From Collinsella aerofaciens (GTDB lineage Bacteria; Actinomycetota; Coriobacteriia; Coriobacteriales; Coriobacteriaceae): a DNA stretch of 8,015 bases. Under the pieces are notes generated by a model. It was given only the letters and a program-made list of their open reading frames with translations. It was not told the DNA's origin and made no database searches. The DNA lies in the NCBI GenBank assembly GCA_014846205.1, contig RKAY01000082.1:1-8015 (forward strand), given 5' to 3'. The first letter of the stretch is position 1; every line of letters begins with the position of its first letter. This document shows positions 3,160 to 8,001 of this stretch, one piece after another. The translations under genes and the position numbers were made by a program.

Positions 3160-3196
3160 AAACTGGAACTCCTTGGTTGCGGTTCATACGCAGACC

Positions 3197-3202
3197 ATTA
3201 TA
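3197..3202 (-). promoter_or_regulatory. Promoter -10 box of tgt
   Basis: Read on the minus strand the sequence is a perfect TATAAT, 37 bases upstream of the tgt start. Transcription would begin near 3190 and give a leader of about 30 bases containing the AAGGAG site. No good -35 hexamer is present at 16-18 bases spacing, so the promoter may be weak or activator-dependent. Confidence 0.6.
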
Positions 3203-3238
3203 CGAGCAACCAGCAAACCGCACCGACTCGACAGAAAC

Positions 3239-3254
3239 TGGTGCAAAGGGGTCA
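3239..3254. repeat. 16-base boundary repeat, copy 1
   Basis: TGGTGCAAAGGGGTCA occurs here and again at 6521-6536. In both places it opens a run of hairpins that ends with the 174-base structured repeat next to the stop of a minus-strand gene. Confidence 0.75.
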
Positions 3255-3301
3255 TAGTCGTTGGGGACGTTCTTAAACGACTAGCCGTTGGGGACAGTCT
3301 T
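3255..3301. repeat. Hairpin with tandem TTGGGGAC words
   Basis: TAGTCGTT (3255-3262) pairs with AACGACTA (3276-3283) around a 13-base loop. A 16-base unit, CGTTGGGGACGTTCTT at 3259-3274, recurs at 3286-3301 with two changes. The unit therefore spans the stem and loop and is repeated directly after it, which suggests a degenerate intergenic repeat. No coding potential is seen. Confidence 0.6.
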
Positions 3302-3319
3302 CAGCGCCACCTTGCAAAG

Positions 3320-3377
3320 GAGTGTCCCAATCTGCCGGCACTCAGGGACTGTCCCCAAGTGCCGGCAAGAGTGTCCC
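3320..3377. repeat. Hairpin with GAGTGTCCC direct flanks
   Basis: TGCCGGCACT (3333-3342) pairs with AGTGCCGGCA (3358-3367), a 10-bp stem. Its 15-base loop contains a smaller GGGA/TCCC pairing. GAGTGTCCC occurs as a direct repeat just outside both arms (3320-3328 and 3369-3377). A hairpin flanked by short direct repeats is the layout of a repetitive extragenic or hairpin-type mobile element, but the flanks could also be part of the repeat itself. Confidence 0.6.
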
Positions 3378-3387
3378 TTCACAACAG

Positions 3388-3561
3388 CCAAGGAAACGCC
3401 GACGCTCTGGCACCGACAGCGAAAACCCGCCAGAGCGAGCAAGGTGCCTTGAAACAAGGCGGCATTGACCTTCTGGTCATGCCGCCGAAGTTGAAAGGCA
3501 GATTGCCGCTCTGGCGGGTTTGCAGCGTCAACTGGTTACGCGGTTCGTAGAACCGCGTAAC
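3388..3561. repeat. Structured 174-base repeat, copy A (possible RNA element)
   Basis: The stretch aligns end to end with 6611-6783, about three quarters identical by hand, with an exactly shared 30-base block at 3417-3446. Stems seen: CGCTCTGGC (3403-3411) with GCCAGAGCG (3429-3437); an alternative 15-bp pairing of 3423-3437 with 3507-3521; GCCTTG/CAAGGC (3446-3460); a hairpin around TGACC-TTCT-GGTCA (3459-3485); and a closing 12-bp hairpin GTTACGCGGTTC/GAACCGCGTAAC (3535-3561) with loop GTA. The last hairpin ends two bases from the stop of the dehydrogenase gene. The two pairings of 3429-3437 exclude each other, so a switch between folds is possible. Function is unknown. Confidence 0.75.
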
Positions 3562-3563
3562 TC

Positions 3564-4364
3564 CTAAGGACGCTGGCCCATGCCGCCCTCGAGGGTGACG
3601 GTCTCGCCGTTCATGTACTTAAAGTCAGGGCCGCAGAGCTGAACGACCACGCGGCCGATCTCTTTCTCGACATCGCCGTAATGACCCGCCGGCGGCATGT
3701 GAACGTTGGCCTTGAACGCCTCGGGATAGGCATCCTGGAAGTTCTCGAGCGCAGCAGTCCAGGCAAGCGGGCATACGATGTTGACGTTGATGCCGTCCTT
3801 GCCCCACTCGTTGGCAGCGACGCGGGTCAGGCCGCGGATGCCCTCCTTGGCGGCAGCATAGCTGCACTGGCCATAGTTGCCAAACAGGCCGGCGCCCGAG
3901 GCAAAGTTGACCACGGAACCCTTGGTCTCCTTCAGGTGCGGATAGGCCTTCTGCATGTACAGGTAGGTGGCATACAGGCCAGAGTAAATGGCCAGGTTAA
4001 ACTGGTCCATGGTGTGGTCGGCGATGGTCACGCCCGAAGCGCTGGCCTGAGCGTTGTTGACGACGGCGTCGATGCGACCGAACTCCTCAATCGCCTTGTC
4101 GATAACGTTCTGCACAACGGCCTCGTTGTCCTGGCCGGCGGAGACATCGGCCTGAACAGGCAGAACCTTGACGCCGTACTCAGCCTCGAGAGACTCCTTG
4201 GCGGCCTCGAGCTTGGCGACGTTGCGGCCGGTGATAACGAGGTTCGCGCCCTCCTTGGCAAAAGCGATATCGATGCCGTAGCCGATGGAGCCAGCGGAGC
4301 CGTCCTTGAGCGTGGCCTTGCCGCCGCCGGTGACGATCACGGTCTTACCAGTGAAAAGTCCCAT
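3564..4364 (-). CDS. SDR oxidoreductase resembling NADP-dependent 12-alpha-hydroxysteroid dehydrogenase
   Basis: This 266-residue protein is a classical short-chain dehydrogenase/reductase. The cofactor-binding part begins VIVTGGGKA and continues SIGYGI (26-31). R47 after the second strand favours NADP(H), Asp73 follows the third strand, and NNAQ is at 103-106. Catalytic residues are Ser156, Tyr169 and Lys173 (SYAAAK). From memory, segments such as NNAQASASG, IYSGLYAT, NFASGAGLFGN, SYAAAKEGIRGL and the tail LEGGMGQRP match clostridial 12-alpha-hydroxysteroid dehydrogenase, which oxidises the 12-hydroxyl of cholate and deoxycholate. An extra stretch of about eight residues (TLKDGSAG, 18-25) expands the glycine-rich loop. 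The start is the ATG at 4364, with AAAGGA 6 bases upstream; an in-frame ATG at 4412 lies outside the family fold. Fold and cofactor class are firm; bile-acid activity is inferred, and related sugar or fatty-acyl reductases are alternatives. Confidence 0.88.
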   Translation of the reverse strand: MGLFTGKTVIVTGGGKATLKDGSAGSIGYGIDIAFAKEGANLVITGRNVAKLEAAKESLEAEYGVKVLPVQADVSAGQDNEAVVQNVIDKAIEEFGRIDAVVNNAQASASGVTIADHTMDQFNLAIYSGLYATYLYMQKAYPHLKETKGSVVNFASGAGLFGNYGQCSYAAAKEGIRGLTRVAANEWGKDGINVNIVCPLAWTAALENFQDAYPEAFKANVHMPPAGHYGDVEKEIGRVVVQLCGPDFKYMNGETVTLEGGMGQRP

Positions 4365-4659
4365 ACAAAGTCCTTTCAAATCGCGACGGGCCCGCCCGTC
4401 GACTGCGCGCATCCAACTTCACGCGCCAAAAGCTGAAATGCAACTTTAGCGGGTTCAAGTGAAAAATAAAGCCCATGGCAGGCGAACGGTGCAACGTCTT
4501 TCGGCGAAGGGAATGTCAAGCACGAACTGGACAAAGAGGCCGAATTATTTGTCACCCAAACGAGTCATCGAACACGTTTTGAAACTTTGCTGCGGGGCGC
4601 GGGATGTCGGCGCGAGACTTTATCATAGGGTGACGAACAACGATGAGGAGCACATGCCT
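4365..4659. promoter_or_regulatory. Divergent intergenic region between the dehydrogenase and coiled-coil genes
   Basis: These 295 bases separate two divergently transcribed genes and should hold both promoters. On the minus side a 7-bp hairpin, CGACGGG/CCCGTCG (4384-4401, loop CCCG), lies about 20 bases upstream of the dehydrogenase start and would fall in its leader. On the plus side TATCAT at 4621-4626 resembles a -10 box about 34 bases before the chosen start, but no good -35 partner is seen. The open frame reaching back to 4459 is not supported as coding. None of the repeat families of the other gaps occurs here. Confidence 0.4.
4645..4650 (+). promoter_or_regulatory. Ribosome-binding site of the coiled-coil gene
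   Basis: GAGGAG lies 9 bases before the ATG at 4660 and only 3 bases before the ATG at 4654. The spacing favours the second ATG (MTDELDPQ). The choice changes only two residues. Confidence 0.65.
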
Positions 4660-6423
4660 ATGACAGACGAGCTGGACCCCCAGACTCAACAGCATATTGA
4701 TGATTCAGCAGACGTCGCCGCAGATACTGACGCTGCGACCTGCAATGATACCCACGTCGACGACGCCACTCTGGATAACGGCGCTGCGACGGAAATCCCT
4801 GCGGCCGAAGATGCCGACGAGAAAAACGACGATTCGGCCGCCCAGGACGATGCCACCGAAAAGGACGCTGCCCCGCAAGCAGCAGGCCCCATCGAGGTAT
4901 CTTCGGAAGAAGAGCTCGATGCCGTCATGGATTCCATGATGGATGCCGTCAAAGCGATGAAGGATGCTGTCGCCGATGCCGACGTTGACGCCGAGGAAGA
5001 AGAGGCCGCCGAGGCCGCCTCGACCTTTGTGCCCGGCGAGACCCCCGTTGCCGATCAGGGCAGCACTATGCCCTCGTTTCTGCAGCTCGAACATCCCACG
5101 ATTGGCGCGGACGCCGTCGACCCGCATGCAGCGGGCTTTTCTGTGATCGAAGGCGGCACCGGCAATATCGCCGCGCCGCAAACTACCGATGTTGACGCCG
5201 CTGACACCGGTCGCCCGATCGCCCCGCACGCCCCCGCCGCGAGCCGCGACCTGAGAACCGCCGTCTCGAACACTGCGAACGCCGTGGGCGCCTTTATCGC
5301 ACAGGGAGCCTCGGCCATGCGCGAGATGAACGCCGCGAAAAAGGCACTCGCCGATGCCCGCGACCACCTGGCGGAGTTGGAGCAGCGCATTTCCGATCAG
5401 GCCGAGGAGCTCGAGACGCGGCAGGATATCGCGGGGCGGTACGACCAGATTGTCGCCGACCAGCGCCAGGCAATCACCACGGCACAAAAGACCGCTGCGG
5501 CCGCCGAGATTGACCGCGACGCCCATGCCGCCAAAGCAACTGAGCTCAAGGGCCAGCTCGAGCAAATGAAGACAGAAGATGATGCAGCTGAGCGCCGCCT
5601 GAAGGCCGCACTCGATGCCGTCGAGGCTCGCGAGGCGAGTTCACGCGAAACCGGCAACCGCCTGGTTCGTCGACTCGAAGATTCCAAGCGCATTCGCGAC
5701 AAGGTGAAGGCCGAGCGCGACGCAGGTGTCGCCGCCGCACAGCAAACTGCCGACGCAACACGCGCACAGCTTGAAACGTTACGACGCGAGTATGCCGAGC
5801 TGCAGCGCAATCCTTCGGCGAACCCCGCCAATTACACCGTGCGCACCAGCGAGCTTTCGATGCAGATCTCCGATGCCGCCGATGCCCTGCGCAAGGCCGA
5901 GGAAGACATTCCACGCGTGACCGCCGACCTTGAGCATTCGCTCGCCGCCGCCGAGCAGGCCGTCGAACAGGCACAGGCCCCCATCGCCGATGCCAAACGC
6001 GCACACCAGGCCGTAACGACCGAGGCGGACGCCGCACGCGACGACCTTCAGACGACCAAGACCGCCGCTGCGACGCGCCAGCGCGAACTGCGCGAGAAGA
6101 TCGCCGCGCAGGACAAGGCTCGTCGCGAGCAGGAGCAGGCCATCGCCAACGCCCAGGCGGACGCCGCACATGCGCAGTCGATTATCGAACAGGCGACCGA
6201 GGTGCACGACCATCCCGAGATCACCGAGTCGCTCGCCGGATCCTTGGCGCGCGATAAGGCCGAACACGCCGAAACCGAGCGCGAAGTGGCCCAGCTCGAG
6301 GCTACCGAGGATGACGTACGAGAGCGCACCCGCGACTCACGCATCAAATTCACCGGTGCCATCGTCTGCATCGTCGCCGTGATTCTGGTAATCATCCTGG
6401 TCTGGCTGTTCACGAGCAAGTAA
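4660..6423 (+). CDS. Acidic coiled-coil protein with a C-terminal membrane anchor, function unknown
   Basis: The 587-residue product matches no family I can name. Residues 1-120 are very acidic and rich in Asp, Ala and Glu, and probably disordered. Residues 121-195 form a Pro/Gly/Thr-rich linker. From about 196 to 560 the sequence is heptad-like and rich in Ala, Glu, Gln, Arg and Lys, predicting a long coiled coil that is interrupted at NPSANPANYTV (384-394). A single hydrophobic span at about 564-584 (FTGAIVCIVAVILVIILVWLF) is followed only by TSK. There is no signal peptide, and Arg/Lys residues precede the span, so a tail-anchored protein with its bulk in the cytoplasm is inferred. It stands alone on its strand, with its own upstream region and a palindromic repeat after its stop. 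Roles in envelope organisation, division or chromosome tethering would fit the shape, but nothing in the sequence selects one. Confidence 0.85.
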   Translation: MTDELDPQTQQHIDDSADVAADTDAATCNDTHVDDATLDNGAATEIPAAEDADEKNDDSAAQDDATEKDAAPQAAGPIEVSSEEELDAVMDSMMDAVKAMKDAVADADVDAEEEEAAEAASTFVPGETPVADQGSTMPSFLQLEHPTIGADAVDPHAAGFSVIEGGTGNIAAPQTTDVDAADTGRPIAPHAPAASRDLRTAVSNTANAVGAFIAQGASAMREMNAAKKALADARDHLAELEQRISDQAEELETRQDIAGRYDQIVADQRQAITTAQKTAAAAEIDRDAHAAKATELKGQLEQMKTEDDAAERRLKAALDAVEAREASSRETGNRLVRRLEDSKRIRDKVKAERDAGVAAAQQTADATRAQLETLRREYAELQRNPSANPANYTVRTSELSMQISDAADALRKAEEDIPRVTADLEHSLAAAEQAVEQAQAPIADAKRAHQAVTTEADAARDDLQTTKTAAATRQRELREKIAAQDKARREQEQAIANAQADAAHAQSIIEQATEVHDHPEITESLAGSLARDKAEHAETEREVAQLEATEDDVRERTRDSRIKFTGAIVCIVAVILVIILVWLFTSK

Positions 6424-6452
6424 ACCAGCCGCCAAAAAACGCCTCAACGCAG

Positions 6453-6515
6453 TTGCGGTGAGATAGTTCCTGTTTAGCCATCAAAAAGGCCAATTCAAGA
6501 ACTATCTCACCGCAA
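6453..6515. repeat. 63-base palindromic repeat, copy 2 (possible terminator of the coiled-coil gene)
   Basis: Arms 6453-6469 and 6499-6515 pair perfectly over 17 bp, extended by AG/CT outside. The ends TTGCGGTG and CACCGCAA, the total length, the C/A mismatch (6470/6498) and the two pairs inside it are the same as in copy 1. Five stem pairs differ from copy 1 and all are compensated. A small GCC/GGC pairing (6477-6479 with 6488-6490) replaces the inner GGCT/AGCC of copy 1. CTTTTT follows at 6516-6521, so this copy could end transcripts of the coiled-coil gene, whose stop is 29 bases upstream. Confidence 0.85.
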
Positions 6516-6520
6516 CTTTT

Positions 6521-6536
6521 TGGTGCAAAGGGGTCA
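6521..6536. repeat. 16-base boundary repeat, copy 2
   Basis: This is identical to 3239-3254. Here it directly follows the 63-base palindrome and precedes the hairpin at 6571-6607. Confidence 0.75.
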
Positions 6537-6570
6537 GGCTACTTTGCGCCAACAACGTTTGACCAGATAA

Positions 6571-6607
6571 AACCTGCCAAAATAAACCTGTCCCTTTTTG
6601 GCAGGTT
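6571..6607 (-). terminator. Hairpin with T-run downstream of queA
   Basis: AACCTGCCAAAA (6571-6582) pairs with TTTTGGCAGGTT (6596-6607), a 12-bp stem with a 13-base loop holding CCTGTCCC. On the minus strand the stem runs into TTTTATC, as in an intrinsic terminator. It lies about 180 bases past the queA stop, beyond structured repeat copy B. On the plus strand no T-run follows. It may equally be a repeat element: AACCTG is duplicated inside it. Confidence 0.45.
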
Positions 6608-6610
6608 GAA

Positions 6611-6783
6611 CCACGGCAACGCCGATGTTCTGGCAAAGTCAGCGAAAACCCGCCAGAGCGAGCAAGGTGACGTGAAAGAGGAGGGCATTGACCTTCTGGT
6701 CATGCCCGACGATTGAACGTCAGATTGTCCAAATGCGGCCCGCGCAGCGTCGGCCGGTTACGGCGTTTGTAAAACGCCGTAAC
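6611..6783. repeat. Structured 173-base repeat, copy B (possible RNA element)
   Basis: This aligns with 3388-3561 with one single-base gap; 6640-6669 is the exact 30-base block. Conserved stems: 6626-6634 with 6652-6660, where two C-G pairs of copy A become U-G if read as plus-strand RNA; the TGACC-TTCT-GGTCA hairpin flanked by GGGCA/TGCCC (6683-6706); and the closing hairpin GTTACGGCGTTT/AAACGCCGTAAC (6757-6783) with loop GTA. The last base touches the queA stop codon. The long-range 15-bp pairing of copy A is lost here, because its 3' arm has diverged. Function is unknown. Confidence 0.75.
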
Positions 6784-8001
6784 CTACAAAATGAGCATCG
6801 CGTCGCCAAAGCTGAAGAAGCGGTAGCGCTCCTGGATGGCGGCAGCGTAGGCATCCATGATCTGGTCGCGGGTGGCAAGCGCACTCACGAGCATCATAAG
6901 CGTGGAGCGCGGCACGTGGAAGTTCGTGATCAGCGCGTCGACCACGTGATAGGTCGAGCCGGGCATAAGGTAGAGCTGCGTCGTCGCGTTCTCGCGCACC
7001 ACAATGTCGCCGCGGCCGAGCGTATCGGCCCCGTCCTCACGGCCCTCAAAATAGCGCGCCGTCACGGCCGGATCGGACACCGGCGCATCGGCGTCATACG
7101 CGCTTTCGAGCGAGCGCACCGCCGTGGTACCGACAGCGATCACACGATGGCCCTCGGCCTTCGCCTTATGCACGGCGTCGACAACCTCCTGCGACACGTG
7201 ATAGCGCTCGGTGTGCATCACATGCTGCGTGGGATCGTCCTCCTCCACCAAACGGAAGGTATCGATGCCCACCTCGAGCTCGACGGCGGCAAACTTCGCG
7301 CCCTTTGCCTCGATAGCAGCCATAAGCTCGGGAGTAAAGTGCAGACCCGCCGTGGGAGCGGCAGCCGAGTGCTCTTCCTTCATGGCGTAGACGGTCTGGT
7401 ACTTCTCGGGGTCGCCCTCGTAATCGGTAATGTAGGGCGGCAGCGGCACGTGACCGGCGGCGTGAATGGCCTCGTCGAGCGTGCGCGGCTCGCCGGCGGC
7501 ATTGCAACCGGCCGGCTCAAAGCGCACCAGACGGCCACCGCGGCTATCAGTGACAAAGTCGATGACCTCGGCCGTCAGCACCACGGGAGCCCCCTCGGGC
7601 GCATGGGCGCCACCGGCGCGATACTCAATCTGAGCACCGGGCTTTAAGCGCTTACCCGGCTTGACCAGGCACTCCCAAACGTGGCCCAGCGGGTCAACAT
7701 CCTCGCGGCGCTTGAGCAGCAGCGTCTCGACCACGCCACCCGAGCCGGCTTTGCGACCGATCAGGCGGGCCGGCATCACGCGCGTCTTGTTGATGACGAG
7801 TACATCGCCCGGCTCGATATAGTCGATGATGTCACGGAAGATGCGGTGCTCGACGGTGCCGCCATGCTCCAGCGGCGTTCCCGCCTCGGAGCCCTTGCGA
7901 TCCACCACCAGCAGGTGGCAGGAGTCGCGCGGCTCGGCAGGAGCCTGGGCAATCAGTTCCTCAGGAAGGTTATAGTCAAAATCATCGGTACGCATAGACA
8001 C
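6784..8001 (-). CDS. queA: S-adenosylmethionine:tRNA ribosyltransferase-isomerase
   Basis: QueA moves the ribosyl part of S-adenosylmethionine onto preQ1 in tRNA and isomerises it to epoxyqueuosine, the step after Tgt. Recognisable blocks are FDYNLPEELIAQAP (8-21), DVLVINKTRVMPARL (66-80), HVPLPPYI (184-191), APTAGLHFT (215-223), the GTTAVRSLES block (291-300) and ALITNFHVPRSTLMMLVSA (356-374). The usual GAGTF motif is GIDTF (245-249). The protein has 405 residues against about 340-360 in well-studied homologues; the extra length seems spread over several loops, such as 36-48, 128-138 and 301-330. The start is the GTG at 8001, chosen by its ribosome-binding site; an ATG at 7995 is the alternative. 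The stop abuts structured repeat copy B, and the gene's upstream region lies outside the window. Confidence 0.97.
   Translation of the reverse strand: MSMRTDDFDYNLPEELIAQAPAEPRDSCHLLVVDRKGSEAGTPLEHGGTVEHRIFRDIIDYIEPGDVLVINKTRVMPARLIGRKAGSGGVVETLLLKRREDVDPLGHVWECLVKPGKRLKPGAQIEYRAGGAHAPEGAPVVLTAEVIDFVTDSRGGRLVRFEPAGCNAAGEPRTLDEAIHAAGHVPLPPYITDYEGDPEKYQTVYAMKEEHSAAAPTAGLHFTPELMAAIEAKGAKFAAVELEVGIDTFRLVEEDDPTQHVMHTERYHVSQEVVDAVHKAKAEGHRVIAVGTTAVRSLESAYDADAPVSDPAVTARYFEGREDGADTLGRGDIVVRENATTQLYLMPGSTYHVVDALITNFHVPRSTLMMLVSALATRDQIMDAYAAAIQERYRFFSFGDAMLIL

Follow-up and report, generated by a model that had tools for sequence, protein, structure and literature searches.

Why do genes of unrelated function in Collinsella aerofaciens end against the same structured repeat, and does the fold of that repeat matter as RNA or as DNA? 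The DNA analyzed here, called the window, is a stretch of 8,015 nt (RKAY01000082.1) containing two copies of one element, at positions 3388–3561 and 6611–6783. Each ends against the stop codon of a gene on the minus strand, a short-chain dehydrogenase/reductase (SDR) gene in the case of copy 1 and queA in the case of copy 2. A first-pass annotation of the sequence had proposed either a new non-coding RNA (ncRNA) family or a hairpin-forming mobile repeat, and had leaned toward a structured RNA of the plus strand, antisense to the gene ends.

The two copies of the window

The copies align without a gap over their first 96 nt, at 86% identity, and each ends in a 12-bp hairpin with the loop GTA, separated from the stop codon (CTA on the plus strand, starting at 3564 and 6784) by 2 nt in copy 1 and 0 nt in copy 2 (Table 1). 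This arrangement had been described correctly in the first-pass annotation, and direct reading also bore out its statement that the two hairpins differ at three base pairs, all three of them compensated. Clearly, the likeness of the two copies is far beyond chance, given their scores of 176 and 99 bits against a covariance model (both are among the 28 sequences from which it was built) and the dozens of further copies per genome.

What had been overlooked was the main structure, a large imperfect hairpin that lies inside the coordinates already given and whose long-range pairing was missed. In copy 1 it spans ~100 nt (3423–3521), its outer arms are 100% complementary, and the predicted fold of the copy has an energy of −105.9 kcal/mol (z −10). 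In copy 2 the outer right arm is unpaired with the left arm while the inner stems are intact; the letters of that right arm match another stem type, as seen at locus L126, and a comparable hybrid occurs at locus L239. Copy 1 is intact; copy 2 is chimeric, combining arms of two stem types, and its outer stem is broken. The same intergenic regions of the window also hold further palindromic repeats of the GGGGAC and TTGCGGTG types, at 899–961, 979–1040, 3255–3367 and 6451–6517.

Table 1. Features of the two repeat copies and of the genes whose stop codons they adjoin.
Feature	Position in window	Strand	Basis or remark
Copy 1, left flank (CCAAGGAAACGCCGACG... up to the A preceding the GC foot)	3388..3418	+	Aligned with 39 other copies; start taken from the first-pass alignment, an approximate border
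Copy 1, large imperfect hairpin with foot (GCGA...GCAGCGTC)	3419..3529	+	Fold and family pairing; outer arms 3423–3437/3507–3521, apical loop ~3471–3474
Copy 1, 12-bp hairpin, loop GTA	3535..3561	+	2 nt from the SDR stop codon
SDR gene, stop adjoins copy 1	3564..4361	-	Pfam PF13561, PF00106; start codon uncertain
Copy 2, left flank	6611..6641	+	Alignment with copy 1 and other copies
Copy 2, large hairpin region	6642..6752	+	Outer stem broken; right arm from ~6726 of another type (L126-like)
Copy 2, 12-bp hairpin, loop GTA	6757..6783	+	Directly at the queA stop codon
queA (S-adenosylmethionine:tRNA ribosyltransferase-isomerase), stop adjoins copy 2	6784..8001	-	Pfam PF02547

A covarying hairpin at gene ends

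Throughout the family, the repeat occurs in high copy number, with a conserved fold whose stems change freely, a fixed orientation and a position flush with gene 3′ ends. The first-pass annotation had proposed searching Collinsella for further copies, building a covariance model and comparing it with Rfam. The first family loci were gathered from a species-level genome collection with an exact 19-mer of the window, an approach biased toward that stem type; it returned 67 stretches, of which 59 were from Collinsella and the remaining 8, from unrelated phyla, look like chance matches. With copy 1 as the blastn query, each of 12 Collinsella genomes yielded 26–36 matches, and the covariance model built from 28 sequences (R1) found 30 copies at ≥62 bits in one Collinsella genome (G001) and 27 in another (G014; 31 matches minus 4 opposite-strand shadows). 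Of the 43 genomes in the genus 33 had at least one match, as did 44 of the 65 in the family, and a broader model (R2), with ten candidates per genome scored, had matches in at least 110 of 296 genomes of the class Coriobacteriia; related genomes are, of course, non-independent samples, and model-made alignments lean toward the model. When R2 was run on 702,951 bases from four distant genomes, four matches were obtained. Three of these, in two of the four genomes, were clear: the foot is the same, the hairpin is alike and stop codons lie at −1, +1 and +4 nt. The fourth was weak and lacked a flush ORF.

In Rfam, the window gave eight matches up to an E value of 1 and none at the gathering score, and ten loci whose copies lack a flush ORF or are separated from it by a gap likewise gave no gathering match and no tRNA beside the copy. 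A phage search for the repeat returned no match, and the one plasmid record matched was a 900-kb replicon of C. aerofaciens (NZ_OY725717.1; L368–L370). Titled plasmid 6, it carries housekeeping genes, among them tyrS and lysS, and is probably part of the chromosome or mislabelled. A PMC literature search found no description of this repeat; the excerpts of PMC8040213 mention Collinsella a single time, for a ribosomal-protein leader. Taken together, this is a large, class-wide family without an Rfam match that looks undescribed.

A full-length copy, of ~150–190 nt, consists of the left flank, an imperfect hairpin of ~110 nt and, in most cases, the 12-bp hairpin at the stop codon. In 75 aligned copies, 95.5% of the cells are paired, 44 of the 52 pairs are altered on both sides, and covariation scores 0.526; not one of 500 shuffles equaled the alignment in any of five measures, and slid versions gave at most 0.089. 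The one opposite-strand row of this alignment (A5; L196) was kept in the pairing test and removed for column conservation. Among 147 unique copies, at least two Watson–Crick types occur in 48 of the 52 pairs, at least three in 39 and all four in 16, counted in a pool that, like those behind the wobble counts and stop-codon positions below, includes some weak or partial matches. These figures support the first-pass view insofar as pairing, and not sequence, is maintained. The constant parts are the foot (AGCGA...GCAGCGTC), the G–A mismatches of TGAA/TGAA, the apical CTT and the GGTA-like hairpin loop, all of them unpaired or at the foot. Since paired and unpaired columns are equally variable (mean top-base frequency of 0.76 and 0.77), conservation is limited to part of the loop columns. 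A local 5′ stem (~3403–3411 with 3429–3437), whose C–G to U–G changes had been taken as a sign of the acting strand, is not family-wide: at locus L115 the outer arm is different but the left flank is of the same type, and this stem cannot form.

In 101 of the 139 unique copies with enough flank, the gene-side end of the element falls within −6 to +5 nt of a stop codon that belongs to an ORF of ≥100 codons; in the other 38, a stop is found at 6–60 nt (11 copies) or not at all (27 copies). At the opposite end, a stop in the same −6 to +5 interval occurs in only 1 of 124. PGAP genes in the C. aerofaciens record agree at all four copies seen in the portions retrieved, where tyrS, lysS and the genes for a DAHP synthase and a D-2-hydroxyacid dehydrogenase overlap the element by 1 nt or lie 2–3 nt away. 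Of seven checked copies without the 12-bp hairpin, five have a stop codon between −1 and +7 nt of the foot, and the other two gave no ORF. At one locus seen in two genomes (L129 and L200), the element adjoins on its right, in place of a stop codon, ~140 nt of palindrome-rich sequence that precedes the next ORF end; this stretch has no tRNA and no Rfam gathering match, and is possibly an unrecognized RNA gene or a long 3′ UTR. With dnaA taken as the origin and the opposite point as the terminus, the adjoined gene is, in three genomes, co-directional with replication for 23 of 27, 21 of 27 and 23 of 30 copies, versus 170 of 274 sampled ORFs. This excess is modest, with nominal P values of 0.008, 0.065 and 0.069 for each genome singly, the three genomes being related.

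Turnover of copies and the choice between RNA and DNA

Stem types change at a fixed site, copies are nested and chimeric, and an IS1111-type insertion sequence (IS) uses the repeat as its target. At the end of queA, a copy or remnant was present in all 21 members of the aerofaciens group that were read, in at least three stem types plus hybrids, and was absent from all nine other Collinsella (loci were obtained for 30 of 42 matched genomes); here, then, the stem type switches at one and the same site. Left of the queA end at L246, an IS200-type insertion, TnpA-like by eye, lies inside the inner stem of a copy. At rnpB, the gene for RNase P RNA, the element follows the RNA 3′ end without a 12-bp hairpin. 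Fourteen of the 16 group loci read are filled and two (L283 and L296) are empty, with no element within the 190 nt viewed at 13 loci of other genomes; short similar stretches flanking the filled sites hint at a putative target duplication of ~7 nt. Behind rnpB at L276, L272, L291 and L295, two stem types are represented by copies that are tandem or partial, which provides a natural laboratory for insertion order. For a protein gene, the one candidate empty site, at a deformylase-like gene by eye, was unusable because the neighboring gene differs. Nested remnants, noted as incidental sightings outside any systematic survey, took two forms: at L135, L201, L247 and L259 the hairpin of a newer copy adjoins the right half of an older one, starting in its apical loop, and at L007, L018, L063 and L202 the remnant of the older copy starts near the foot.

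A 1530-bp IS1111-type element of the IS110 family (L004:160–1689) is inserted at the exact site ACAG^CGA of the repeat. Its 373-aa transposase has the domains PF02371 (Transposase_20) and PF01548 (DEDD_Tnp_IS110), GGATTGGGTCATA/TATGACCCAATCC lie near its ends, and the IS110-family transposase, the subterminal inverted repeats and the long 3′ non-coding region (280 nt) place it in the IS1111 group. Its junction with the foot was seen in 26 loci, some representing the same place twice, and in 16 by a narrower pattern. The 3′ non-coding region contains a 9-nt complement across the junction, a guide match that is only suggestive, being equaled by 99 of 5000 shuffled targets. Upstream at L010 lies a second element of the IS110 type, which has a different target, apparently a palindrome of the GTGCCGGCA type.

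RAYT-like or IS200-like Y1 transposases are encoded in 37 of the 43 genomes of the genus. Around 15 Y1 genes (13 RAYT-like and 2 IS200-like, viewed mostly in 5 kb and in some cases with one short flank), no match to the element was better than an E value of 0.067. Mobilization by RAYT, as judged by flanking copies, was therefore rejected, and these 15 loci disclosed no mobilizing enzyme for the repeat. On both sides of the Y1 gene at L184 and L186 stands another short palindrome family, GGGGAC-like as in the window, and these palindromes may be true RAYT REPs.

Covariation is what usually establishes that an RNA is structured. If either strand functioned as RNA, G–U pairs on that strand would be expected above A–C. 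On the plus strand of the 147 unique copies, 132 G–U were counted versus 101 A–C among 7394 cells, whereas the RNase P RNA of related genomes (29 sequences and 100 pairs, leaving out L278, whose 3′ end was unreadable) gave 301 versus 3 among 2900 cells, with a structure from RNAalifold, a tool that leans to G–U. Neither strand shows an RNA-type signature, and a weak plus-strand effect is possible, the small G–U excess being on the plus strand. Because G–U is hardly favored over A–C, we infer that the fold is kept at the DNA level, where a single-stranded or extruded hairpin would be recognized by some protein or the arms would be re-templated on each other. Put differently, the choice is between a fold that matters as DNA and arms that serve as templates for each other, although copying alone would be expected to erase the conserved mismatches.

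These counts bear most directly on the plus-strand ncRNA, antisense to gene ends, that was originally favored. It would account for the covarying fold, the G–A mismatches on the plus strand and the slight G–U excess there, but a G–U/A–C ratio of 1.3, compared with 100 in RNase P, makes it the least credible of the readings and very improbable indeed. Its strand argument was based on the non-conserved 5′ stem, and a simple σ70 scan of 3160–6850 found a lone promoter-like site, on the minus strand at 3883, where 0.6 were expected by chance. A DNA hairpin element of gene ends is more likely than such an RNA; of the two first-pass alternatives, the mobile repeat is supported and the plus-strand RNA is not. 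Ordinary intrinsic terminators made alike by gene conversion would also be found at gene ends, and both window copies do have TTTT after a G+C-rich arm on the minus strand. That T run is missing from other stem types (e.g., L126, by eye) and does not stand behind the 12-bp hairpin, and a terminator has no need of the conserved foot and internal loops. In a sample of 273 gene ends from G014, a perfect hairpin (≥9 bp) that begins no more than 6 nt from the stop was present at only 8, and all eight carry the element's foot motif. This explanation is improbable as well.

A 3′-UTR RNA element of the adjoined minus-strand gene deserves more weight, even if it is rather unlikely. Its hairpin at the stop codon would slow ribosome release or protect the 3′ end, with selection keeping the fold, and it would fit the flush position, the fixed orientation and the retention of a queA copy by all 21 group genomes even though its type changes. 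Moreover, REPs of E. coli that lie no more than 15 nt from a stop are reported, in the excerpted text of PMC12306157, to lower translation. Against it, the minus strand shows no G–U excess (plus-strand A–C being minus-strand G–U, 101 versus 132), copies also adjoin rnpB, a non-coding RNA gene, without the hairpin, the adjoined genes are functionally unrelated, and queA outside the group lacks the element. On balance, the window copies probably belong to a class-wide, REP-like DNA hairpin repeat of gene 3′ ends whose fold is kept as DNA and whose copies would multiply through insertion or replacement, both at gene ends and within older copies. Against this DNA-repeat reading stand the small plus-strand G–U excess, the lean of RNAalifold in the RNase P control, the 38 of 139 copies that are not flush with an ORF and the lack of any mobilizing enzyme among the loci checked. 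In addition, arm-to-arm copying could yield covariation without recognition of the fold, and a useful 3′ UTR would likewise be expected at one and the same gene in every group member. Within the DNA-repeat reading, the hairpin in the mRNA of the adjoined gene may also affect termination or mRNA stability, effects that are reported for E. coli REPs near stops. A more ambitious version, which we offer tentatively, is a structure-recognized mobile DNA hairpin found throughout the class, whose stems would drift by paired DNA-level changes while mismatch loops and foot are kept, and whose copies a yet-to-be-found enzyme would place at stops, at the rnpB 3′ end and in the apical loops of older copies, giving covariation without RNA.

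The strong covariation seen here, with almost no excess of G–U over A–C, probably reflects DNA, which urges caution in automated RNA-motif discovery in microbiomes. The family is also a natural test of how hairpins just behind stop codons affect genes, gives an IS1111-type (guide-RNA) element a defined set of targets, and invites a hunt for a new mobilizer in common gut bacteria.

Comparison with known systems

The repeat is a high-copy extragenic palindrome and in this resembles the REP/BIME/REPIN sequences, which, as the excerpted texts of PMC3733652 and PMC6006769 describe them, are likewise often near stops, vary in their stems under a kept structure and are targets of IS110-family elements. 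ISPa11, of the IS1111 group, is one that targets REP sequences, according to the excerpt of PMC11187229. REPs are given there as 20–40 bp (PMC3733652) or 21–65 nt (PMC6006769) in size, whereas the element, at ~150–190 nt, with a long multi-loop hairpin and a second hairpin, lies well outside that range, and its very regular flush position is also unlike theirs. The CGTC REPs, which have 8–9-bp stems and are reported without a dedicated transposase in the same excerpts (PMC3733652, PMC6006769), invite comparison because the letters CGTC also occur in the foot of the element's large hairpin (GCAGCGTC). That foot is conserved, although in the model employed its first C is part of a pair, and the stem size is off from that of the CGTC families. 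Unlike GTAG REPs, which flank the RAYT gene, no copy of the element was near the 15 Y1 loci checked. The repeat works most like REPs, then, but departs from them in size and in its relation to RAYT.

Integron attC sites offer another parallel, since in them structure rather than sequence is conserved, they stand behind genes and they are the target of some IS1111 elements. Unlike attC, the copies described here are dispersed behind unrelated chromosomal genes. As for the inserted IS, as distinct from the repeat, it resembles the IS1111 group in its two transposase domains, subterminal inverted repeats, 3′ non-coding region and single exact target, and it differs from other IS1111 elements in targeting this repeat, at ACAG^CGA.
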